DNA of 64,000 nucleotides from Hyphomicrobium sp. D-2 (lineage in GTDB: Bacteria > Pseudomonadota > Alphaproteobacteria > Rhizobiales > Hyphomicrobiaceae), in contig NZ_JARXLA010000008.1 of assembly GCF_029872155.1 (NCBI RefSeq), positions 560,501 through 624,500 of the forward strand, given 5' to 3'. Both the position numbers and the translations under genes were made by a program. The notes beneath the pieces are model-generated. The model ran no database searches. It was not told the origin of the DNA and was given only the letters and a program-made list of their open reading frames with translations. Positions within the stretch are counted from its first letter, which is position 1; each line of letters starts with the position of its first letter. This document shows, piece by piece, positions 4,846 to 36,362 of the stretch.

Positions 4846-5646
4846 TCAGCGCGCGCGGATGTAATGCGGCAGAATGAACGGCACGCCTTCAGACGGTGTG
4901 CGGTTGGTGCGTACTTCGCAGCCGTAAGCTCGGGACAACACATCGTCCTTCAATACTTCGGCCGGCGTTCCGCGTGCGGTGATGCGCCCGGCGCTGAGCA
5001 GCACGAGTTCGTCGGCAAACACGGCGGCCAGATTCAGGTCATGCAGAATGGCCATGACCGCAAGCCCCTTGCGGGCCTGTTCCAGCGCTTCTTCCAGTAC
5101 GACGCCCTGATGGGCGAGGTCGAGGCTGGCGGTCGGCTCATCCAGCAGCAGAATGCCCGGTTCATTTTCAGCGCGCTTCGCCATCGCAAGCTGCAACAGC
5201 GCGCGCGCAATATGTACGCGCTGGCGTTCGCCACCGGATAGATTTGTAAACAGGCGATGTTCAAGCGCCAGCAGCCCTACCGTGCGCAGGCAGTCCAGCG
5301 CCATGCGCTCGATGTGCTCCGGCGGCTCTGCAAAGCCGGGCACGGTTGCGCCCAGCAGCACCACTTCGCGCACGCTGAATGGAAACGAGAGTGCCGTTGA
5401 TTGTGGCACCACAGCGCGCCGCCGGGATAGATCCAGCGCGGTGAAACTGGACAGCGCGCGGCCGTCCAGTGTGATCGCACCGGAGGTTGGCTTGATCTCG
5501 CCCGACAGCAGCTTCAGTAGCGTGGATTTGCCAGCACCGTTCGGGCCGACAAGTGCAACCAGCTTGCCCGGCGGGATCGCCATGTCGATGTCGGAGACGA
5601 GCGTCTTGCCGTTGATCTGAAATGCGGCGGCGTGTGCAGTCAGCAT
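4846..5646 (-). CDS. hmuV: heme ABC transporter ATP-binding protein HmuV
   Basis: This is the cytosolic ATPase that powers heme import across the inner membrane with HmuU and HmuT. In its 266 residues I see Walker A GPNGAGKST (residues 34-42), the Q-loop region VVPQSTALSFPFSVREVV, the ABC signature LSGGERQRV, Walker B ILLLDEPTASLD, and the switch His in AILHDLNLA. It lies 3 nt after the hmuU stop, last in the minus-strand hemP-hmuTUV operon. The FecCD-type partner and the heme receptor across the divergent promoter make heme a more likely substrate than a siderophore. Confidence 0.95.
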   Translation of the reverse strand: MLTAHAAAFQINGKTLVSDIDMAIPPGKLVALVGPNGAGKSTLLKLLSGEIKPTSGAITLDGRALSSFTALDLSRRRAVVPQSTALSFPFSVREVVLLGATVPGFAEPPEHIERMALDCLRTVGLLALEHRLFTNLSGGERQRVHIARALLQLAMAKRAENEPGILLLDEPTASLDLAHQGVVLEEALEQARKGLAVMAILHDLNLAAVFADELVLLSAGRITARGTPAEVLKDDVLSRAYGCEVRTNRTPSEGVPFILPHYIRAR

Positions 5647-5649
5647 TGT

Positions 5650-6741
5650 TTACTCCGAGCCGCCGATGCCGCGTTTCATCACCAGATGCAGGAACACGGG
5701 CGTTCCGATCGCAGCCATCACGATGCCGATGGGCAGCTCTGCCGGACGCACGATGAGCCGCGCGATGATATCGGCGAACAGCAGCAGCGCCGCGCCAAAC
5801 AGTGCGCTGCCCGGCAGCACGACGCGATGATCCGGCCCGGCGAGCAGGCGAATGATATGAGGCACAACGATGCCAATGAAGCCGATAACGCCAGCCATCG
5901 CGACGGCGGCGCCGACGGATGCAGCGGTCGCTACAATCGCGATGCGCTTGGTGCGCTCGACATTGATGCCGAGGTGAAACGCTTCGGCTTCGCCCAACAG
6001 GAAGCCGTTCAGGCCGCGGATCAGCAGTGGCGTCAGCAGTGCAATCAAAATACCGAATGGCAGCACGGCAAGAATTTTGGGCCAGTTGGCACCGCCGAGG
6101 CTACCCATGGACCAGAAGGTAAGGTCGCGTAGCTGACGGTCGTCGCTGGCGTATGCGAGCAGGCCGGTTAGCGCACCTGAAAGAGCACCAAGCGCGATAC
6201 CCGCAAGCAGCAGGGTGCCAATCATGAGCTGGCCGTGACGTCCGGCGATCGTGACAAGTATCAGCGTCGTCACCATGCCGCCGAAGAACGCGGCAACAGG
6301 CAATGCGTAGATGCCGAGGGGCGCGAGTATCGGCGCGGCAATACCATTGCCCAGCACGATGGTTGCGACGGCAAAGAGTGCTGCGCCGGACGACACACCA
6401 ACGAGGCCAGGGTCAGCCAGCGGGTTGCGGAACAACCCCTGCATTATTGCGCCGGCAATCGCCAGGCTCGCGCCGACGAAAATGCCGAGCAACGTGCGCG
6501 GCAGACGAATGTCGAGCAGCACCAGTTGTTCGCGGGCGATGGTGGCATCGGTTGTGCCGCTGATGGCGGCAGAGAGCGCACGCGGCAAAGACGACAACGT
6601 GATGCCCGTGGGCCCCAGTGAAAGCGACGCAACTATCGCAACAGCTAGAAGTACAGCGCTGCCAATGATGACCTGGGCAGCGCTCATGCGGTGGGTTTTC
6701 CCCGCCCGGCTGCCCGAGAGGGGAATTGCTTCACTCGTCAT
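5650..6741 (-). CDS. hmuU: heme ABC transporter permease HmuU
   Basis: FecCD/BtuC-family inner-membrane permease of 363 residues with about ten helices. Family landmarks include LDIRLPRTLLGIFVGASLAIAG near the first third, GLFRNPLADPGLVGVSSGAALF, and GFIGIVVPHIIRLLAGPDHR, the segment that docks on the ATPase. The start overlaps the hmuT stop by 4 nt (ATGA), implying translational coupling. It moves heme delivered by HmuT into the cytosol. Confidence 0.95.
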   Translation of the reverse strand: MTSEAIPLSGSRAGKTHRMSAAQVIIGSAVLLAVAIVASLSLGPTGITLSSLPRALSAAISGTTDATIAREQLVLLDIRLPRTLLGIFVGASLAIAGAIMQGLFRNPLADPGLVGVSSGAALFAVATIVLGNGIAAPILAPLGIYALPVAAFFGGMVTTLILVTIAGRHGQLMIGTLLLAGIALGALSGALTGLLAYASDDRQLRDLTFWSMGSLGGANWPKILAVLPFGILIALLTPLLIRGLNGFLLGEAEAFHLGINVERTKRIAIVATAASVGAAVAMAGVIGFIGIVVPHIIRLLAGPDHRVVLPGSALFGAALLLFADIIARLIVRPAELPIGIVMAAIGTPVFLHLVMKRGIGGSE

Positions 6742-7676
6742 TCGGCAGCGCTCGCCTTCTTCTGCACCAGTTCGGGATAAAGGGCGGCCATCAGTTCACG
6801 GGCGGCGCGTGCGCAGCGTGGCCCGAAACCGAGAAGATAAAGGCCGTTCATCTCGATGATCTCGCCATTCTTCATGGCTGGGCTGCCAGCAAGTGACGGG
6901 ACGGTTTTTATGCGATCGGAATGCATGCCACCGCCGCCATGCTGCATGGTGAGGATCGCGTCAGGAGCAAGCTCTACGCCGGATTCATCGGTCATGGGCT
7001 TGTAGCCTGGAACCGAGGCCCCTGCATTCACCGCGCCGGCAAGCTGGATCATCGCATCGGCGCCGGTTCCAGCGCCGCCAATGGTGGCCTTGCCGCTCTG
7101 CACGCTCAGCACGAACAGCGCGCGCTTCGGCTTCGTGATCTTGGCGCGCTGCTCCGCCAGCAGTGCAAAGTCGCGCTCGACGTCCTTGGCCAGAGCTTCG
7201 CCCGCAGCTTCCAGGCCTACAACTTTCGCGATGAAGCGGATCTTGTTGGCCACACCCTCGGGTGTTTTATCGTCAGGCACCATCACATAGGGAACAGACG
7301 AAGACTTCAGCACCTCAATGACCGGAGGCGGGCCCGCGTCCGATGAGGCAATGATGACTGAAGGATTGGTGGAAAGCACACCCTCGGCTGACAGCGCGCG
7401 CAGATAACCTACGTCGGTTTTCTTTTGCAGCGCGTCGCCAGGAAACTGGCTCGTTGAATCGATGGCGATGATTTTGTCGTCGGCGCGCAGAGCATAGAGA
7501 ATTTCGGTTACATCGCCGCCGACGGAGAGGATGCGTGAGGTGTCGGTCACCTTAACGTCGCGTCCGCTGCCATCCACGATCAATTGTTCGGCCAGCGTCG
7601 AAGTTGCCGACATGGCAACGCCAGCTGCAAGCAGGAGGGAAGAGGCGCAAGTGCGTATCAGATAGCTGCGAAACAT
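6738..7676 (-). CDS. hmuT: periplasmic heme-binding protein HmuT
   Basis: 312-residue solute-binding protein of the helical-backbone (ABC class III) type. An N-terminal signal peptide (SSLLLAAGVAMSATSTLAEQ) is followed by the VDGSGRDVKVTDTSRILSVGG opening typical of HmuT/PhuT. Two lobes are separated by a long helix around residues 150-180. YLRALSAEGVLSTNPSVIIAS and the C-terminal LLGFGPRCARAARELMAALY are standard family segments. It receives heme from the outer-membrane receptor and passes it to HmuUV. It lies 7 nt downstream of hemP and overlaps hmuU. Confidence 0.94.
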   Translation of the reverse strand: MFRSYLIRTCASSLLLAAGVAMSATSTLAEQLIVDGSGRDVKVTDTSRILSVGGDVTEILYALRADDKIIAIDSTSQFPGDALQKKTDVGYLRALSAEGVLSTNPSVIIASSDAGPPPVIEVLKSSSVPYVMVPDDKTPEGVANKIRFIAKVVGLEAAGEALAKDVERDFALLAEQRAKITKPKRALFVLSVQSGKATIGGAGTGADAMIQLAGAVNAGASVPGYKPMTDESGVELAPDAILTMQHGGGGMHSDRIKTVPSLAGSPAMKNGEIIEMNGLYLLGFGPRCARAARELMAALYPELVQKKASAAE

Positions 7677-7683
7677 TGATATC

Positions 7684-7878
7684 TCACTTTGTCAGGATGA
7701 GCTTGCCGTTGGCGGTGATGCGCAGACGGTAGTCCATGCCGTCGTGCTCAAGTATGGCCTCGCGGCCGCCTTTCAGAATATCCTTCACCGCAACGCGCAC
7801 TTTGCGTTCGCCATTAGAACCTGTAATATGCTCTACGGCCGCATCGGGATAGGTTTCTTCTTTGGCAGCGGCCTTCAT
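7684..7878 (-). CDS. hemP: hemin uptake protein HemP/HmuP
   Basis: A 64-residue protein whose C-terminal half (GREAILEHDGMDYRLRITAN, then GKLILTK) is the HemP domain. HmuP in rhizobia is reported to activate expression of the heme receptor together with Irr. The frame can extend to a GTG at 7959 (91 residues). I prefer the ATG at 7878, which has GGAG 8 nt upstream and gives the usual family length; the longer form would begin 6 nt from the RirA-like operator. It is the first gene of the minus-strand operon and divergent from the receptor it may control. Confidence 0.85.
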   Translation of the reverse strand: MKAAAKEETYPDAAVEHITGSNGERKVRVAVKDILKGGREAILEHDGMDYRLRITANGKLILTK

Positions 7879-7965
7879 GACCTGCGCTCCATGGCTTTTT
7901 TGAAGATGGCCTCGAAATGCGAGCGGTGCGGCGTTTGTGGCAGATTTGCGCCCGAACACATTTCT

Positions 7966-7980
7966 TGACTCTAATAGTCA
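7966..7980. promoter_or_regulatory. RirA-type iron-responsive operator (candidate)
   Basis: The sequence TGACTCTAATAGTCA is a perfect inverted repeat (TGACT, 5-nt centre, AGTCA) and fits the TGA-N9-TCA iron-responsive operator described for RirA in rhizobia. It sits in the divergent region between hemP and the heme receptor, where it could control both directions. Match and position are seen directly; binding is inferred. Confidence 0.6.
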
Positions 7981-8139
7981 TAAAACATTAACTTGTACAA
8001 GTCCGGCAGTGCCGGATTAGGTGCGTCCCACCGTCGTGGGCAACGCATCGGAATTGAGGCAAGCCCGCCAGTAGTACGCGTATGTGTTGCGTGCATGAGC
8101 CAGCCAGCCCTTTGGTATGCGTTTTGGGGGGTTGAGTTA

Positions 8140-10440
8140 GTGCGTGCGCGTAGCGTTGCGTGTGAAGTTGCGGCTGCGGGTTCGCCCGCAGGAGCCTCAG
8201 GGCTCAGGGAAGTTCAATCAAGCAAGAGTATCGATGGCTCAGCCGGGCGCTCCCGTACTCCCGGTGCTCCGGTTTCAGGGCCATTCGTTAGGGCCTTCCT
8301 CTTGCTTGGTGTTTCTGTCGTTGCTGTTTCTGTCGCCAGCGATGCGTTCGCGCAGGAAACTCAACTCCCCCCTCTTACTGTAGAGGGTGCGCAGGCCAAG
8401 AAGCCGACGAAAAAGAAGGCAGCCGCCAAGAAGTCTTCGCCGAGCGCTGCAGTTTCTGCACCACAGCCGATGCAGGCTCCGCAGACGCAGGCTACTTCCG
8501 CTGCAGTTACTGAGCCATCGTTTGTGCCTTACACGGTGCCGGCTGGCGTAAGTGTAATCGACAGCAGTGAGCTGAACACCTTCGGGCAGGTTCGCACGGA
8601 CGGTGTTCTGCGCGCGACGCCCGGAACATTCACACGCGAAAGCGCAGGCAATCCTGGCACCGCCGTCAACATTCGCGGCTTTGAGGGCCAGGGCCGCGTT
8701 AACATGATGATCGACGGCGTCCGCCAGAATATTCGATTTACTGGCCACGAAGCCGCTGGCTTTGCGTATGTCGATCCGATGTTGCTGGCGGGTATTGATA
8801 TTCAGCGCGGTGCAGTTTCCGGCCGCGGCGGTGCAGGTGCTCTGGCAGGCGCGGCTAATTTCCGTACGCTCGGCGTAAGCGACATTATCAAGGATGGCCA
8901 GAACGCTGGCGTGCTTTCCGCCGTCACCTGGGGCAGCAACGGCACCGGATGGTCGAAGATGATCGGTGCCGGTATGCGTAACAGCACTGCCGGTGTCGCG
9001 GCCGCGATCAGCGGTAGCAATCGGGATAACTACAAGAATGGTAACGGTGAAACGGTTCGCTTCACCGATCAGGATGTGGTCTCAGGTCTCGCCAAGGCCT
9101 ATGCGTATCTTTCACCGGAAGCGCGCGTAGATTTCGGCGGCGTGTTCTATGACAACGACTTCAGCGCGCAGTCGGTAAATCAGAACGTCACATCTCGGAT
9201 TGCCAACGGTCTCTTTCACTATGCGCCAGCCGACAATAACCTGGTCAATTTCCAGGCCGGCATCCAGTACAGCAATGTCGAGATTGAGTATCTGAGCGCG
9301 GTGAACTCGGCAGGTAATTCAAGTGTCGGTCGTACGATTGAAGACCGCGGCATTGGCTTCGATCTATCCAACACGTCCCGGTTCATGCTCGGCCAGGTGA
9401 AGGTTGCTTCCACCTACGGTTATGAGTACTTCCGCGACGAATACACGGTTGCCAACGGCAACGTGAACCCCGGCGGCACGATGACCGTTGGCGGTGCGTT
9501 TTCGAACACTACTTTCACCTACGGCATCGTCGATTTCATTGCGGGCCTTCGCTACGACCACTACTCGGTGGAAGGCAACGGAGCTTACGCTGGCATTGAG
9601 AATGAAGATGGTCGTTTCGATCCGAAGCTGACGCTCGCTGTAAATCCGTTCAAGGGTTTCCAGGTTTACGCGACTTATTCAGGATCGATGCGCGCGCCGA
9701 CAACCAATGAAATGTTCTTTGGTGGTAGTCATCCAGGTGCAGGAACCACCGGCTTCTACAGACCTAACCCGGCTCTGGATGCTGAAACGCAGCAGGGTTA
9801 CGAGTTGGGCTTCAATTACCTGCAGCGTGACGTGATCAATCGTGGCGACGTCTTCGGCCTCAAGGCAGCGTACTATCGCATGGACGTCGACAACTACATC
9901 GTGACGCGCATGTCGACGGTACCGTCTACCGTCTATTTCTTCGATAACGTACCCGGCACGAGCTTGGTTGAGGGCGTCGAAGTTCAAGCCGATTACGACA
10001 CCGGGTTCGCGTTTGCCGGCCTTGTGTACAGCTACAACAACAGCACTTTGCCTTCTCAGCTCACATCCTCTTTCGGCGGCAGCACCTATATGCCGGAGCA
10101 CAACCTCGTTCTTACGGGTGGTCTCCGGTTCCTCGACGAAGCGCTTGAGGTGGGAGCTCGCGCTTCCATCGTGTCAGGGGCTGACGATCCGAGCGCTACG
10201 GCTACAGCTGGTCGCCGGGCTGGCTACGAATTGGTCGATCTGTTCGCAAACTATAATGTTTGGGAAGGCGTGACACTCGGCGCCATGGTGACCAACGTTT
10301 TCGACCGCACTTACACGCCAGTGCTAGGTACAGCGCAGTCTTCGGCCTGTGTCTCCTTCACTATTCCGAGCACGTGTCCGGCTGAACCTCAGAGTGGCCG
10401 TGGCCGAACCTTCATCCTGTCGGCGAGGGCGCAGTTCTGA
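8140..10440 (+). CDS. hmuR: TonB-dependent heme/hemoglobin receptor
   Basis: Outer-membrane receptor that imports heme with TonB energy. A secretory signal (FVRAFLLLGVSVVAVSVASDAFAQ) is followed by a Lys/Ala/Pro-rich spacer. The plug has heme-receptor features: AVNIRGFEGQGRVNMMIDGV and GRGGAGALAGAANFRTL. A 22-strand barrel follows, ending in TFILSARAQF with the terminal aromatic residue. The start is uncertain. The GTG at 8140 follows a G-rich run 8 nt upstream; an ATG lies at 8095, and the frame is open to a TTG at 7993. All give an unusually long stretch before the signal core. It is divergent from hemP-hmuTUV and upstream of hmuQ and hutX. It lacks an STN domain, unlike the receptor at 30936. 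Confidence 0.9.
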   Translation: MRARSVACEVAAAGSPAGASGLREVQSSKSIDGSAGRSRTPGAPVSGPFVRAFLLLGVSVVAVSVASDAFAQETQLPPLTVEGAQAKKPTKKKAAAKKSSPSAAVSAPQPMQAPQTQATSAAVTEPSFVPYTVPAGVSVIDSSELNTFGQVRTDGVLRATPGTFTRESAGNPGTAVNIRGFEGQGRVNMMIDGVRQNIRFTGHEAAGFAYVDPMLLAGIDIQRGAVSGRGGAGALAGAANFRTLGVSDIIKDGQNAGVLSAVTWGSNGTGWSKMIGAGMRNSTAGVAAAISGSNRDNYKNGNGETVRFTDQDVVSGLAKAYAYLSPEARVDFGGVFYDNDFSAQSVNQNVTSRIANGLFHYAPADNNLVNFQAGIQYSNVEIEYLSAVNSAGNSSVGRTIEDRGIGFDLSNTSRFMLGQVKVASTYGYEYFRDEYTVANGNVNPGGTMTVGGAFSNTTFTYGIVDFIAGLRYDHYSVEGNGAYAGIENEDGRFDPKLTLAVNPFKGFQVYATYSGSMRAPTTNEMFFGGSHPGAGTTGFYRPNPALDAETQQGYELGFNYLQRDVINRGDVFGLKAAYYRMDVDNYIVTRMSTVPSTVYFFDNVPGTSLVEGVEVQADYDTGFAFAGLVYSYNNSTLPSQLTSSFGGSTYMPEHNLVLTGGLRFLDEALEVGARASIVSGADDPSATATAGRRAGYELVDLFANYNVWEGVTLGAMVTNVFDRTYTPVLGTAQSSACVSFTIPSTCPAEPQSGRGRTFILSARAQF

Positions 10441-30427: not shown

Positions 30428-30436
30428 TCGCGCACC

Positions 30437-30465
30437 GGCGACTCCGCTGCGCGGAGCCGGCCGCC
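30437..30465. repeat. REP-like covarying hairpin repeat, copy 1
   Basis: Core architecture in this orientation: GGCG, ACT, 4-nt arm, 3-nt loop, complementary 4-nt arm, AGCCGGC, CGCC. Here the arms are CCGC/GCGG and the loop TGC. Outer stem GGCG/CGCC pairs 30437-30440 with 30462-30465. It lies 10 bp after the GMC oxidoreductase stop. Five more intact copies of the same family occur in the window. Confidence 0.75.
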
Positions 30466-30730
30466 AGCGCTTATCGGCGCTCCGCAGGAGTGTTGTCGGC
30501 GCTTATCAAATTCATGGTGGCTGCCCGCTTCATAGAGCTAGCCGCCAGCGCCGATTGGTGCGCGGTCATGGGCACCCTGCCTAGCCTGCGATGCCACGTC
30601 AGTTCGACCAGCAGCTGGGTAGCGGCCCCGTAGGGACCCTAACCCCTTTAGCAAGTTGCTCCGCAGCGGTGCAGGCCGCCGAGTGCGGAAAAGTAGGCAC
30701 GTGCTGAGGCCCCATGCCTCCTCTCGACGT

Positions 30731-30935: not shown

Positions 30936-33900
30936 TCAGAACTTATAGGCGACGCCGAGCTTCCACTCGTCAGACGTGAGATCGACCTTATGCGCACCGG
31001 CTGGTGTGTCGAACGTCTTCTTGCCGAAGTCGTTGTGTCGATACTCGGCGCGGAACAGCATGTGATCGGTCATCGCGTGCTCGACACCGGCGCCGAGTGT
31101 CCAGCCGATGTACGTCCCCTGGAAGTTCGTAACATTGGGCAGCGTTATCGTAGATGCAGTTTGGTTCAATGAAAACGAAGCGTAGTTGTAATTGAACTGT
31201 GCCACGGCAAGACCGCCAGCGATGTATGGAAGCATTCTGTCGAAGGCGACACCGACGCGACCGCGCACACCCGCCTGCCAATCAACGTTCGACGTAACGG
31301 TTGTGGTGAGAGTGCGCGTGATGGCAGGGGTTGCGGCTGGCGTGGTGAACCTTCCCACCGAGACATCCGTCGCAGCAACATAACCGGCGTTGGCATCGAC
31401 GCCGAAAACGACCGGCGAATTGAGTTGGAAGTTGTAACCCGCGAATAGGCCTCTGCTCAGATTCCCGGCTTCATGCGCGGTTTGCAAATTGGAGCGATAG
31501 GGATTCCAGACATAGTTGGCGGCGTTTGACCCGGTCCTTATGGTGCCCGTGAAATCTCCCTCCGCCGAGGCAGACGTCGCAAGATAGCCACCTTCGAGAC
31601 CTGCAAACGCACCGCTCCAATCGTGCCCCGTGCTGCGCGTCGTCATTACCGGCACGGAGATTTCGTCGAAGCCATATCCACCCTGATCGTCAAACCTTAG
31701 CGTACCGCCGATCCGCATGGTGCGTCCGGGTGCGGGTTGCTTAGCGATCGACATCGGATCGACGTAGTACCTGTCAAAGACGTTTTCGATGCTGGCCGAA
31801 ACTTCGAAGTGCTCGCTAAATTTATAGCTGCTGAACAGATCGACAATCGCATCCGGCCGCCACATTGGCGCATCGAATACAAAATTGCCGTTCGGCAACT
31901 GCCAGGGAACGACGCTCTTGCTGAAGAAGCGCGTGGTGGCGCCAACTGTCAGCTTGTCTTCGAGCATCTTGGTGCCAACAGTCAATGAACCGGAATACTT
32001 CGGCGGCGCAGATATCGAATAGACCAAACCGCCGCCACCGAGATACTGTGTGCAGCCGGTGTTAATCGAAGGACCGACGATCCACGGATGCGGCGGATAG
32101 CAATACTCGAAAGTGGTGTAGTAATTGAAATTGGCTTCGGCAAATAGCGTACCGTTTGAATACGAGCCCGACAGCTCAATACCGTCGATCTTGGCGCCGG
32201 GAATGTTGTGATAGTAGTAGTCGGGATCGTATGGAGTTATGATCGTTATGTAGTCTTCATAGCGGTTATTGAAGTACGCGAGCTTCAGTTTCAGAGCATC
32301 ATCCGCCCGCAGCACATCTCGCGTGAGAAGGTTAGCGCCAAGTTCGAAGTTGCGCGATTGTTCTGGACGCAGCGTAGGATTGACCGCATAGCCCGAGTAG
32401 GCCTGCGGCACGGTCTCACGAATTGATGGCGGTCGATATCCTTCGGTGTACTTACCGAACAGCTGCAGCCCCTCCAGAAACTCCAGCGTGACGCCGGCCG
32501 ACGGCGTAATACCGCTTCCATCCTGGCCTTGCTCAACGAACGTCGCGCCTTGCTGATAACCGCCCCAAGTTTCAAACGTCGTGTAGCGAACGCCACCATC
32601 AAGGGTCAGCCAGTCCAGCGGCTTCCACTTCAGGTTCGCATAGGTGCTGGCAACCTCGCGTGAGGCGTGGTTGTTGCGAAGGCCGCCTTCTAGGTCTGCT
32701 TCTTCCAGCGAATATTCACCGCCATAGGTCGCAATGAATAGTCCGGCAACGGAGTCCAGGCGGGACTCATTCCAGACTTCAGTACCCCAGGACTCAACAA
32801 TCCCCGGCGCATCCTTACTTGTCGTGAACCGTTGATCGGTTCGTTCAAGCTGCGCTTTCCAAACGTTGGCGTGGAAATTCACAAGATCGTTTTCTGCAGG
32901 GTTCCAATTGTACCGTCCCCACATGCGCTCGCTTTGGATCCAGTTCAGCGGCGCCTGTGCCAGGCCATTCGCCGAGATGGGATAGATCCATCCAAAGTCG
33001 TTCGCGCTGCGCAGATAACCGGCTTCGACCGAATGACCTTCCCAAGGGCGCACAGTTGCCTTCAGCAATTGGGAGCGGCTGTCCTGCGATGTATTGAGAA
33101 CCTCGGCGCCAGCGGCGCTCCTTGAATAAACCTGCGTCGCCGTTGCGCCGTAGTTCGCGGCGCCGTTCTTGCCAGCGAAATAGTTGCCGTGCTCGCGTTC
33201 AGTTGCCGCCGCGACGATTTCAATCGTGTCGGTTCTCGCGGCAAGTGCGATGCTGCCGGAGCGGCCGGCGAAGTTGAACAGTGCGGGCCGATCGAAGTCG
33301 AATGCATGGTTGCCTGCGTTCGGCACATCGTCCGTGACGTTACCCATCAGGGTGCCGCGCACGCGAATGCCAACCGTTCGGCCAGGCAGCAACACGTCAT
33401 CAGCCATAAGCGTTCGCATGCTCACCACACCAGCGATGGCGCCGCCATTGGGGCCGGTTGACGGCCCCTTGTCGACTGTGATGCTGCTGATCAGGTCTGG
33501 ATCAACAAACGTCGAATTGTCCTGACCGAAATAGCCCTGGTGGGTCGAGGAATCGATTTCGCTGCCTTCAACCTTTACTTTGACGCGATTGTTTCCGTGC
33601 TGACCGCGGATGCTGACGTCCATCTGAGCGCCATTGTTGCCGCCGCGAATATCGACGCCGGGAACGTCGCGGAGCATGTCGCCAGGTGTTGTTGCAGGCA
33701 GGCGTTCAAGCTGCTCAGCGGAAACATAGGAGACCGACCCAGGCGTTATGTATGGCTCATCCGCCGCCGCCGAACCGCTGCTGCCACCCGACACATCAAT
33801 CGTATCAAGAGCTATCGCGCCATCGACCGTCGCTGCGCTGCTGTCGGTTGCGGGATTGATGATGCGTGCGGTGTTTGCACTGATGGAATAGCTGAGCCCG

Positions 33901-34229
33901 GTTCCCGCAAGCATCTGTGCCAGCGCATTCTCCGCCGTCAGGGAACCGGCAACGCCGGGCGACTTCACGTTCTGCGGCACGCTGCTGTCGGCCAGCACGC
34001 TCATGCCGGTGATGCTCTGAAACGCCACCATCGCCGACGACAGCGACTGCGGAGCGATGTTGAAGGAATACTGGCCAGCATTGCTCTGCGCAGCTGTTTG
34101 CGCGATCAGCGGAGCGGGCAAGGCAATTGCAAACCCGCAGAACGCGGTCGTGACAAGCAGCGCCGCTTTCCAGCGTCGGCTGCTGATGGAATAACGCGCG
34201 TGGCAAATCGGCTGCCGATACGCTGGCAT
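30936..34229 (-). CDS. STN-domain TonB-dependent receptor fused to a C-terminal Omp25/31-like barrel
   Basis: A 1097-residue outer-membrane protein. The signal peptide ends near residue 44 (LPAPLIAQTAAQ). An STN signalling domain follows at about 50-115 (YSFNIAPQSLSSAMVAFQSI), then the plug (GDMLRDVPGVDIRGGNNG; GPSTGPNGGAIAGVVSMRTL) and a 22-strand barrel of the hemoglobin/heme receptor type. That barrel ends at residue 846 with MRIGGTLRF, a normal receptor C-terminus. The chain then continues: from about 868 (DWSGAFAGLEGGYLATSA) to the end (EWKLGVAYKF) it matches the small Omp25/Omp31 opacity-type barrel. It is encoded after fecI and fecR, so ligand binding should signal through STN to FecR. 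Ligand: probably heme or another iron compound, by family and context. Confidence 0.88.
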   Translation of the reverse strand: MPAYRQPICHARYSISSRRWKAALLVTTAFCGFAIALPAPLIAQTAAQSNAGQYSFNIAPQSLSSAMVAFQSITGMSVLADSSVPQNVKSPGVAGSLTAENALAQMLAGTGLSYSISANTARIINPATDSSAATVDGAIALDTIDVSGGSSGSAAADEPYITPGSVSYVSAEQLERLPATTPGDMLRDVPGVDIRGGNNGAQMDVSIRGQHGNNRVKVKVEGSEIDSSTHQGYFGQDNSTFVDPDLISSITVDKGPSTGPNGGAIAGVVSMRTLMADDVLLPGRTVGIRVRGTLMGNVTDDVPNAGNHAFDFDRPALFNFAGRSGSIALAARTDTIEIVAAATEREHGNYFAGKNGAANYGATATQVYSRSAAGAEVLNTSQDSRSQLLKATVRPWEGHSVEAGYLRSANDFGWIYPISANGLAQAPLNWIQSERMWGRYNWNPAENDLVNFHANVWKAQLERTDQRFTTSKDAPGIVESWGTEVWNESRLDSVAGLFIATYGGEYSLEEADLEGGLRNNHASREVASTYANLKWKPLDWLTLDGGVRYTTFETWGGYQQGATFVEQGQDGSGITPSAGVTLEFLEGLQLFGKYTEGYRPPSIRETVPQAYSGYAVNPTLRPEQSRNFELGANLLTRDVLRADDALKLKLAYFNNRYEDYITIITPYDPDYYYHNIPGAKIDGIELSGSYSNGTLFAEANFNYYTTFEYCYPPHPWIVGPSINTGCTQYLGGGGLVYSISAPPKYSGSLTVGTKMLEDKLTVGATTRFFSKSVVPWQLPNGNFVFDAPMWRPDAIVDLFSSYKFSEHFEVSASIENVFDRYYVDPMSIAKQPAPGRTMRIGGTLRFDDQGGYGFDEISVPVMTTRSTGHDWSGAFAGLEGGYLATSASAEGDFTGTIRTGSNAANYVWNPYRSNLQTAHEAGNLSRGLFAGYNFQLNSPVVFGVDANAGYVAATDVSVGRFTTPAATPAITRTLTTTVTSNVDWQAGVRGRVGVAFDRMLPYIAGGLAVAQFNYNYASFSLNQTASTITLPNVTNFQGTYIGWTLGAGVEHAMTDHMLFRAEYRHNDFGKKTFDTPAGAHKVDLTSDEWKLGVAYKF

Positions 34230-34332: not shown

Positions 34333-35286
34333 TTAGCGGGGCAACGCCAGCGTCAGCCACGGGCCAACTTCGACGATGCGGGTCGGCAGGATTTCGCCAA
34401 GACGCTCGATCACTTCGTCGAGCCGATCAATTTCCGCGATGACAGTAACGGGCTGTTGAGCCAGCTCCTCACCGACAACGATCAGTCTGCCCTTGCGCCA
34501 ACGGTTGATGGTTGCCGCCACATGACCAAATGGCGCGTGGGTGAATACTAGTCGGCCTTCTCGCCAGGCGAGATCATTACGCGTATCGGCAATCTCCGGT
34601 GTGCTGATGCGCTGGCCAGAGAACGTTGCGCGATGCCCGGCGGTGATTTCGACGTTGCTCGCGCCGGAGCTGAGCCGTACCGCGTGCTCGGTCACAATAA
34701 CGCGGACGTCCTGCGCCTCGCGCGAGACCGCGAACGAGGTTCCGAGCGCGCGGGCACTCGCCGCACCGGCATCGACGATAAACGGCCGTGTTGGGGCGGA
34801 TGCGACGTCGAAAAACGCTTCGCCCGCCAGAAGCATTACGCGCCGCACCTCAGGCGTGAAGACAACCGCGATCTGTGTCTGTGCGGCCAGTTCAACGTGT
34901 GAGCCATCGGCCAGCGTTATGGTCTTGCGTTGCCCGGTTGCGGTTTCAAAGTCCGGACGCGGCCCGGAGGGTGCAAAGCGCCACAGCAATCCGCCCGACG
35001 CTAGCAGTATCGCAGCCACCCCGAGCTGACGTCGCGTCACCTTCTTGGCCTTCAGCGTCTTGTCGTGTTCCTTGAGCACGGGGATTTCGCCCGCGCTGTC
35101 CCACAGCCGCTGGATGTCAGTATATGCGTCGGCATGGCGCGGGTCAGCGCTCAGCCAGGTACTGAAGGCGTCGCGATGGTTGCGTGACGGCTTGCCGTCG
35201 TTGAGCTTTGCGAACCAGGCAGCCGCCTCTTCGACAATACGAAGATAGTCGGCTTCCTCTTCCGTCTGCTGTCGATCCGCGCCCAT
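34333..35286 (-). CDS. fecR: FecR-type anti-sigma factor/transmembrane signal transducer
   Basis: A 317-residue protein. The cytosolic N-terminal DUF4880-like region (AAAWFAKLNDGKPSRNHRDA, FSTWLSADPRHADAY) binds the sigma factor. It is followed by KKVTRRQLGVAAILLASGGL, a single membrane segment preceded by twin Arg. The periplasmic FecR domain starts FETATGQRKTITLADGSHVE and includes LLAGEAFFDVA and a STN-contacting C-terminal part. The ATG at 35286 follows GGAAA; a GTG at 35301 is possible. It sits between fecI and the receptor, the classical order. Confidence 0.92.
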   Translation of the reverse strand: MGADRQQTEEEADYLRIVEEAAAWFAKLNDGKPSRNHRDAFSTWLSADPRHADAYTDIQRLWDSAGEIPVLKEHDKTLKAKKVTRRQLGVAAILLASGGLLWRFAPSGPRPDFETATGQRKTITLADGSHVELAAQTQIAVVFTPEVRRVMLLAGEAFFDVASAPTRPFIVDAGAASARALGTSFAVSREAQDVRVIVTEHAVRLSSGASNVEITAGHRATFSGQRISTPEIADTRNDLAWREGRLVFTHAPFGHVAATINRWRKGRLIVVGEELAQQPVTVIAEIDRLDEVIERLGEILPTRIVEVGPWLTLALPR

Positions 35287-35396
35287 GCTTTCCGTATCCA
35301 CGCCCCGATGATCGGTGCGGTGTCCCTACCGTCTATGACAATCGAGCCGAACGGAATTCTGAGCCCGCGACGGAAATAAAATTCATGCCGAAATAT

Positions 35397-35900
35397 TCAG
35401 GCAGCCTGTGCATCGAGACGCAGCTTCAGCCGCACAAGGATGCGGGTCATGTGCGCATAGGCGGTCTGCTGCGGAATTTGCAGCGTCTTGCCGATGTCGG
35501 CGAAAGTTCGGCCTTCGATGCGCGACAGCAGGAAGATCTGCTGCTGTATTGGCGTCAGCTCAGAAAAGAACGCATTCAGCAGCCGCAATTCCTGCCGGCA
35601 GATGGCAATCCGTTCCGGTGAGGGCTGCTCGTCGGCAAGCTCAAGTAGAGCTGCTTCGGGATCTTCCACGAACGGGATGATCTGCTGGCGCCGGTTGTGA
35701 TTGATCGCGGCGTTGCGGGCGATGCGGAAGAGATATGCGGAGGCATTGTCTATCTGCGCGCCGGGCGGCGTGGCCATCATGCGTGTGAACGCATCCTGGG
35801 TAAAATCAGCGGCCAGATCAGCCGACGTTCCACGTCGCTGGAGATAGCGCGTGATGTCCTTGGCATGCGCCTTGAACAAGCTATGAAAATCCCACGCCAA
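35397..35900 (-). CDS. fecI: FecI-type ECF RNA polymerase sigma factor
   Basis: A 167-residue ECF sigma factor. Region 2 has SADLAADFTQDAFTRMMATP and AYLFRIARNAAINHNRR; region 4 has ELTPIQQQIFLLSRIEGRTF followed by ADIGKTLQIPQQTAYAHMTR. It should transcribe the receptor gene when FecR releases it. No ATG precedes region 2. I chose the TTG at 35900 because AGGAG lies 9 nt upstream; a TTG at 35933 would add 11 residues. A candidate Irr site lies about 100 bp upstream. Confidence 0.9.
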   Translation of the reverse strand: MAWDFHSLFKAHAKDITRYLQRRGTSADLAADFTQDAFTRMMATPPGAQIDNASAYLFRIARNAAINHNRRQQIIPFVEDPEAALLELADEQPSPERIAICRQELRLLNAFFSELTPIQQQIFLLSRIEGRTFADIGKTLQIPQQTAYAHMTRILVRLKLRLDAQAA

Positions 35901-35995
35901 CGCAACTCGCTCCTGCAAACACCGGATGTGCAAACGGCATCTCGACGATGTTTCTGACTGCTAGCGTGGTGCAGAAAGGCAAGCAAGTGGAGCAG

Positions 35996-36012: not shown

Positions 36013-36253
36013 TGTGCCCGGAGCGACTGCTGCAAAACATTACACGAAAAATCATGTTTTTGTTGTCTGGCGGAGAGTTAGCGCGCCTAACATCTGTGTT
36101 TGGATGCAAATCCGGCGCATGCAAATCTTCCGAAACTGTGGCGAGCTTGCATCGTCGGTACTGGCGCCGCATGGCACTGCTATAGATCGAGCGCCGATAG
36201 CTGCCCGCTCCGTGAGGAGCAGGAGCATACACCTCTGCTCCACTAAACCAGCG

Positions 36254-36286
36254 TCGGCGGCCGGCCGCCCGGAGGGCAGTCGCCGA
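36254..36286. repeat. REP-like covarying hairpin repeat, copy 2
   Basis: Same architecture as copy 1 in the reverse orientation: outer stem TCGGCG/CGCCGA (36254-36259 with 36281-36286), inner arms GCCC/GGGC, loop GGA (TCC on the other strand). It lies in the gap between the fecI promoter and tlpA, 68 bp from copy 3. Apart from the repeats and the Irr-like site, the 464-bp gap 35901-36364 shows no gene. Confidence 0.75.
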
Positions 36287-36321
36287 TGTCTCTGCGCCGA
36301 CGGACGAGCGGGGTTAGATCC

Positions 36322-36362
36322 GGCGTCGGTGGCCGGCTGCCCGGAGGGCAGTCACCGACGCC
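36322..36362. repeat. REP-like covarying hairpin repeat, copy 3
   Basis: Reverse orientation; perfect 10-bp outer stem (36322-36331 with 36353-36362), inner arms GCCC/GGGC with loop GGA, and the invariant GCCGGCT on the left. It ends 2 bp from the tlpA stop codon, so it may act as its 3' end structure. Confidence 0.8.

Follow-up and report, generated by a model that had tools for sequence, protein, structure and literature searches.

The 64,000 nucleotide stretch of the Hyphomicrobium sp. D-2 genome analysed here (contig NZ_JARXLA010000008.1, positions 560,501 to 624,500; the window hereafter) encodes a TonB-dependent transducer, F1, whose chain is predicted to continue beyond the end of the receptor into a second outer-membrane (OM) barrel. 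The open reading frame (ORF) of F1 (30936..34229, minus strand, as are all the features of the module) starts with ATG and runs uninterrupted for 1097 amino acids. It encodes an STN signalling domain (33858..34004, residues 76-124; PF07660, 41.0 bits against a cut-off of 28.4), the block VDGAIALDTIDVSGG (33783..33827, residues 135-149), where the cassette exchange described below putatively has its left crossover, a Plug domain (33426..33746, residues 162-268; PF07715, 71.2 bits) and a HasR-like first barrel (31692..33374, residues 286-846; PF00593, 127.3 bits, matched at 354-817). The LDTI core of the block (residues 141-144, between STN and plug) is present in 16 of 16 paralogs from the same genome and we take it to be the TonB box. 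Upstream of F1 lie a FecR-type anti-sigma regulator (34333..35301; DUF4880 plus FecR, PF04773, 76 bits) and a FecI-type extracytoplasmic function (ECF) sigma factor (35397..35933; PF04542 and PF08281), the start codon of which is unsettled.

The first barrel reaches a normal terminal strand, MRIGGTLRF, that holds the internal C-terminal strand signal GGTLRF (31692..31709, residues 841-846), and an earlier note on this DNA had pointed out that the chain runs on from residue 846; indeed it does so in one frame, through a linker of 24 residues, DDQGGYGFDEISVPVMTTRSTGHD (31620..31691, residues 847-870), expected from the topology of OM barrels to lie on the periplasmic side. The second barrel that follows is of the OMP_b-brl (Omp25/31) type (30939..31619, residues 871-1097; PF13505), starts at W871, ends in WKLGVAYKF with F1097 as its last residue, and is in frame with the receptor, having no signal peptide of its own and not being a separate chain. 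PF13505 matches residues 884-1097 with 60.2 bits (cut-off 28.7), which bears out the Omp25/Omp31-type barrel with its own terminal Phe that the note had proposed and disposes of the possibility, raised there, that the tail matches no OM barrel profile. The "opacity-type" half of its label finds no support in Pfam; five families are listed for the whole of F1, of which OMP_b-brl alone falls in the tail, and Opacity is not among them.

Structure prediction, as the note had suggested, yields a barrel-like tail at moderate confidence. A model of residues 45-1097 has a mean predicted local distance difference test score (pLDDT) of 68.1 and a model of the tail alone one of 69.8, and in both the tail has eight long strands (at least 13 residues each) plus short strands in the loops. 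The short turns LNSP, AFDR and MTDH of the tail alternate with its other loops. The pLDDT is low around the linker and around the tail's first long loop. The barrel of TonB-dependent receptors has 22 strands, and about 21 are modelled for the first barrel of F1. The best fold match of the F1 model is HasR (PDB 3csl, TMt 0.74 over 802 columns), and among solved structures F1 is closest to HasR, ChuA and ShuA, by sequence and by fold alike. Foldseek matches the tail model to OmpA, OprG, NspA and OmpX at a TMt of ~0.6 but with a root-mean-square deviation of 8-12 Å, and a search of PDB sequences with the tail profile gave no match. As both models are only moderately confident, the claim that the tail is a barrel rests mainly on the family profile.

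The genome encodes eight such paralogous fusions, F1-F8, of 1063-1210 amino acids and each in a single frame, and the unfused HasR-like paralogs U1-U8 (786-935 amino acids) are available for comparison; this set of 16 excludes fragments, the receptor that is divided between contig ends, and other TonB receptors. A further 12 single-frame fusions were found elsewhere, six in genomes or metagenome-assembled genomes (MAGs), including Hyphomicrobium sp. NDB2Meth4, Kaistia terrae and MAG KLAP182, and six as plasmid-borne genes, of Ancylobacter polymorphus (two), Pseudochrobactrum, Shinella, Ketogulonicigenium robustum (Rhodobacterales) and Novosphingobium sp. RL4 (Sphingomonadales). The fusions span at least three orders, the six plasmid genes represent five plasmids (a second Pseudochrobactrum record was kept out of the trees), and several of the plasmid records are marked complete. 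The fusion, the frequency of which the earlier note had wanted to know, occurs eight times in this genome and at least 12 times outside it, and the possibility raised there that relatives would carry two separate genes and that a stop codon lies here finds no support, all 20 extracted fusions being open frames. The annotated plasmid records name the proteins only "TonB-dependent receptor", and the Novosphingobium and Shinella stretches are without annotation.

A profile of the junction (alignment A2) was matched over its full span in 3 of 21 genomes of relatives (eight matches in this genome, one each in G003 and G006), in at least 3 of the order's 397 sampled genomes (this genome, G200 and G373; 5 candidates scored per genome), and in this genome only among 385 of the class (best 6 candidates scored per genome) and among 398 of the phylum (best 5). 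The counts for order, class and phylum are lower bounds, and these samples miss some fusions, because the plasmid searches revealed fusions in other orders; those searches matched 1085 and 1095 records in some part, and each gave 8 with at least 80% query coverage. Two contig ends, of C1 and C4 (L031 3-952 and L032 4828-5797), have 975 bp in common at 95% identity within a HasR-like receptor gene, and reflect either the duplication of a receptor or a single receptor broken by the assembly.

Similar tails are not confined to similar receptors. The tails of F1 and F2 are 69% identical and their bodies 38-39%, the tails being 72% identical in DNA over 848 bp with a longest exact run in common of 47 bp, and between F1 and the KLAP182 fusion the STN is 71%, the body 39% and the tail 53% identical. 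Greater conservation of tails than of receptors was considered as a general rule and rejected; it holds for F1/F2 and fails for F4/F6 (tails 44-45% identical, bodies 57%) and for F6/NDB2Meth4. On the tree of receptors, 9 changes of the fused label are required with 31 rows, 7 of them forced by well-supported branches, and 11 changes with 40 rows, 8 of them forced. Fused receptors as a single clade are rejected (approximately unbiased test, p-AU 1.5e-6), as is a tree in which the bodies of F1, F2 and KLAP182 are held together (p-AU 1.6e-5), a group that was chosen after viewing the tail tree. On the tree of tails the label of the fused ones requires 2 changes with 94 rows (stand-alone matches of under 150 residues being excluded) or 3 changes with 80 rows (those of under 95 bits or under 170 residues being excluded). 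The clade with the F1 tail nests among stand-alone Omp25/31-type barrels and the other main tail clade is a branch of its own, the two being 24-30% identical to each other. These alignments and trees show related tails sitting on distantly related receptor bodies; losses must, on the same trees, account for part of the mixing of fused and unfused receptors, yet would not account for close tails on distant bodies.

Comparison with the loci of H. sulfonivorans S1, which are ~86-93% identical in DNA to those of the window genome, locates a point of exchange. Upstream of the F4 gene and over its nt 1 to ~420, which encode the signal peptide and STN, the DNA is mostly 85-100% identical to that of H. 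sulfonivorans locus L071; identity then drops to ~50% at the TonB box and is back at 95% ~60 bp past the stop codon, and the L071 gene at this position encodes an unfused receptor of 909 amino acids. Locus F2 and L072 (unfused, 941 amino acids) switch at the same TonB-box point, with DNA similarity resuming only far downstream, past a carboxylesterase gene, and an unfused control pair (L026/L073) has no switch at the TonB box. Both F2 and F4 have a conserved FecI-FecR-STN front, ~93% identical in DNA to that of the relative, followed by a different receptor body, with or without a tail, and it would appear that receptor bodies are exchanged in nature at the TonB box behind this fixed front. 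Another unfused pair (L030 4397-7204 and L074 5959-8715) is ~84-99% identical except for a block at nt 1640-1900 inside the barrel, which we interpret as a local, loop-level replacement.

The TonB-box block is nearly invariant in protein across the 16 paralogs. Exact DNA runs of at least 24 bp are shared by 17 of the 120 paralog pairs, in 13 of which they fall inside this block, compared to means of 0.74 pairs overall and 0.18 in the block for 200 synonymous-codon shuffles. At 17 of 26 loci STN and FecR have the same nearest partner (null 1.0, p 0.0002), agreement with the nearest by receptor body being 3/26 for STN (p 0.11) and 2/26 for FecR (p 0.29); when the six H. sulfonivorans-pair rows are removed the figures are 11/20 for STN-FecR, 1/20 for STN-body and 0/20 for FecR-body. 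Of the 27 loci given to this test G373 was dropped as its TonB box lay outside the pattern, and FecR is upstream of the receptor at all 27 loci examined. The F6 body, for example, is 75% identical to that of NDB2Meth4; the nearest STN and FecR to those of F6 are in SZAS-16 and the nearest to those of NDB2Meth4 are in U6.

OM proteins carry a C-terminal beta-signal that is recognised by the beta-barrel assembly machinery (BAM). The terminal residue of the first barrel is aromatic in 20/20 unfused receptors and in 9/20 fused ones, the remaining 11 having Leu or Ile (Fisher p 0.00015; the end in F8, where the anchor is shifted, was placed by hand), and a count collapsed by hand over the first 31 genes gives 4/12 fused against 13/13 unfused. 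All 20 fused chains end in Phe. Frequent loss of the aromatic residue from the first barrel is what would be expected if the tail now carries the signal for BAM. In six ortholog pairs of the F6 group the ratio of non-synonymous to synonymous substitution (dN/dS) is 0.08-0.33 for the tail and 0.07-0.20 for the body, and the tail appears to be maintained in this group.

We therefore regard F1 as probably a FecA/HasR-type TonB-dependent transducer with a chain that continues into a second, 8-stranded OM barrel, and one of a family in which bodies are exchanged at the TonB box. Both barrels would lie side by side in the OM with the linker in the periplasm, and BAM would recognise the beta-signal at the very end of the second barrel, which would relax the constraint on the end of the first. 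By homologous recombination within the TonB-box block, and in some cases within the tail, the cell may bring receptors of new specificity under a signalling circuit that it already has. More tentatively, the family could form a natural recombinational diversification system, in which the FecI-FecR-STN front is followed by the TonB-box block as left arm, exchangeable barrels and, in some genes, the second barrel as right arm, with BAM often being given one full beta-signal, at the end of the second barrel. What the second barrel does is the part of which we are least sure; it might be an accessory surface domain in cis, with extracellular loops beside the receptor mouth that help to dock or select the ligand, and we see as unlikely, both to the same degree, that it acts as a phage or bacteriocin shield or that it serves only to organise the membrane.

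A number of observations weigh against this interpretation. Syntenic exchange is, as far as the aligned loci go, seen at two loci only. The exact runs in the TonB-box block stem from eight of the 16 genes, and synonymous identity across the 16 paralogs is not raised there (0.40-0.47 compared to 0.45 overall). There is no clear Mantel correlation between STN and FecR (-0.009), STN and body (0.19, p 0.06) or FecR and body (-0.09), presumably due to saturation of most of the identities. The trees neither demonstrate nor reject one origin for all the tails (p-AU 0.09). The Fisher tests count related genes as independent, F1 itself retains an aromatic residue, Phe, at the end of its first barrel, and dS exceeds 1 for all but one of the six ortholog pairs that underlie the dN/dS values. 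Finally, the models are of moderate confidence (pLDDT 68-70) for two closed barrels.

It would seem unlikely that one or two ancient fusions were followed simply by many independent tail losses, with no tail ever having moved. Such a history is in keeping with the unrejected single origin, a loss needs no more than one stop codon, and the unfused paralogs stop close to the point from which the fused ones go on; it leaves unexplained, however, the close tails on distant bodies of F1/F2 and F1/KLAP182 and the step-like switch that loci F2 and F4 show, and the grouping of F1, F2 and KLAP182 bodies is rejected, albeit for a group defined post hoc. That the tail is a neutral hitchhiker, or the fusion one that is heading to decay, is improbable: its dN/dS is 1.3-1.8 times that of the body in the six ortholog pairs, as such a tail might have, but the values themselves are 0.08-0.33, the terminal Phe is kept in every fusion and fusions occur in at least three orders. 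Slightly less probable again is that the extra strands merge with the first barrel into one larger barrel or that the tail stays in the periplasm, an arrangement with which the low pLDDT at the linker and first long tail loop would agree; the first barrel as modelled nevertheless matches HasR along its 802 columns, the tail modelled alone has its eight long strands, with matches to OmpA-type barrels of 8 strands, and its short turns alternate with other loops. An artefact of sequencing or assembly that joined two genes has next to no probability given the eight paralogs and the 12 fusions elsewhere, several on plasmids marked complete; nothing was found in its favour, and a lost stop codon or assembly error is rejected on account of the paralogous single-frame fusions.

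The earlier note had also proposed that the second barrel could capture ligand for the first, small Omp31-type proteins having been reported to bind hemin; that it binds hemin as Omp31 or HbpA would and passes it on we find rather doubtful, a little more so than the history of tail loss. The tail is of the appropriate Omp25/31 type and the first barrel is closest to the haem receptors HasR, ChuA and ShuA. However, F1 scores 302.5 with the haem-receptor model TIGR01785, under its cut-off of 316.85, and lacks His at both of the positions that we take to ligate haem in HasR, H189 of the plug and H603 of loop 7, where it has Tyr233 and a His-free FRAP/NPNL loop. Among the 16 paralogs His is present at both positions in F7 and the unfused U3 only, F8 having the plug His alone and F3 the loop His alone; the plug position is Tyr in F1-F6, so that within these six F3 is the only one with either. 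The two tail clades are, moreover, only 24-30% identical, and the invariant columns of the fused-tail alignment contain no His. No hasA was found in 1 genome, and the same search found none in 14 control genomes either. F1 is HasR-like in build and, from these residues and scores, should not be called a haem receptor. The note's picture of a signalling, capturing and importing unit in one gene survives as two barrels combined with STN, FecR and FecI, without the capture of hemin for the first barrel. Hemin binding is reported for the Omp31 protein of B. suis (PMC9728373).

The proposed two-barrel transducer has features in common with several known systems. With HasR (Serratia HasR, PDB 3csl; TIGR01785) it shares STN, TonB box, plug and a large barrel, and it differs in its score below the TIGR01785 cut-off, in the presumed haem-ligand His not being kept and in the extra C-terminal barrel. 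With the FecA, FpvA and PupB transducers that work with FecI-FecR it has STN, TonB box and the FecI-FecR-receptor order in common; those described end, to our knowledge, at the first barrel. The tail belongs to the same family as the stand-alone Omp25/Omp31-type OMP_b-brl proteins (PF13505) but is tethered to a receptor and has no signal peptide. Sigma and anti-sigma genes (HasI, HasS) also precede the receptor gene in the HasR system (PMC9249621). The same source describes laboratory chimeras of which PupBA transported and signalled and PupAB transported without signalling, so that signalling domain and barrel are separable (PMC9249621). It is these PupA/PupB chimeras that natural exchange of bodies at the TonB box would resemble; a modularity known from the laboratory is thus seen here, going by the aligned loci, in nature.

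Titles and abstract openings listed in searches of the open-access literature, covered in part for some of the searches, mentioned neither the fusion of a TonB receptor with a further OM barrel nor natural receptor-body exchange at the TonB box. The usual picture of an OM protein is that of one barrel per chain with one C-terminal beta-signal. A natural family that joins a large receptor barrel to an 8-strand barrel, often with a degraded inner signal, and that comes with unfused paralogs as controls, makes the handling of two barrels by BAM directly testable, and exchange of receptor bodies suggests how bacteria bring new uptake specificities under existing control.

Other chains with two OM barrels were encountered. 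A TonB receptor of 1071 amino acids without STN and with an OMP_b-brl tail (L117 4023-7238, genome G047) is unmatched by the receptor-body profile and looks like an independent fusion, and proteins of 478-525 amino acids with tandem OMP_b-brl-type barrels (L118 2005-3441 in G099; L119 445-1980 and 2178-3755 in G385) represent a further natural two-barrel architecture within the order. These resemble F1 in having two OM barrels per chain, though L117 is without STN and the L118 and L119 proteins consist of two small barrels, and they are likely to be of separate origin.

The FecI-FecR-F1 module is flanked by the arms of a REP-like (repetitive extragenic palindromic) inverted repeat, the left at 30433..30471 and the right at 36250..36288, which are 77% complementary over 39 nt; a third REP-like repeat is found at 36320-36358 of the window, and many copies are scattered in G001, which is very probably H. 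sulfonivorans. In G001 the flanks of the module are 20.9 kb apart as opposed to 5.9 kb here, with no FecI, FecR or F1 match between them and only short receptor matches on other contigs among the matches listed (best 40 of 221 candidates). Given the inverted REP-like bracket, the module may be an inserted unit. Elsewhere in the window, positions 4846-10440 encode a FecCD permease, a periplasmic binding protein, an ABC ATPase and a separate TonB receptor, and by its gene content this is predicted to be an iron or haem-type uptake locus; with the permease, binding protein and ATPase, inner-membrane uptake for an iron-type ligand would be at hand. Finally, the fused receptor F5 is directly followed by an autotransporter gene identified by Pfam (L014 6144-9110), and the ORF after the unfused receptor U6 (L028 2333-4711) has a C-terminus that, judged by eye, is autotransporter-like.

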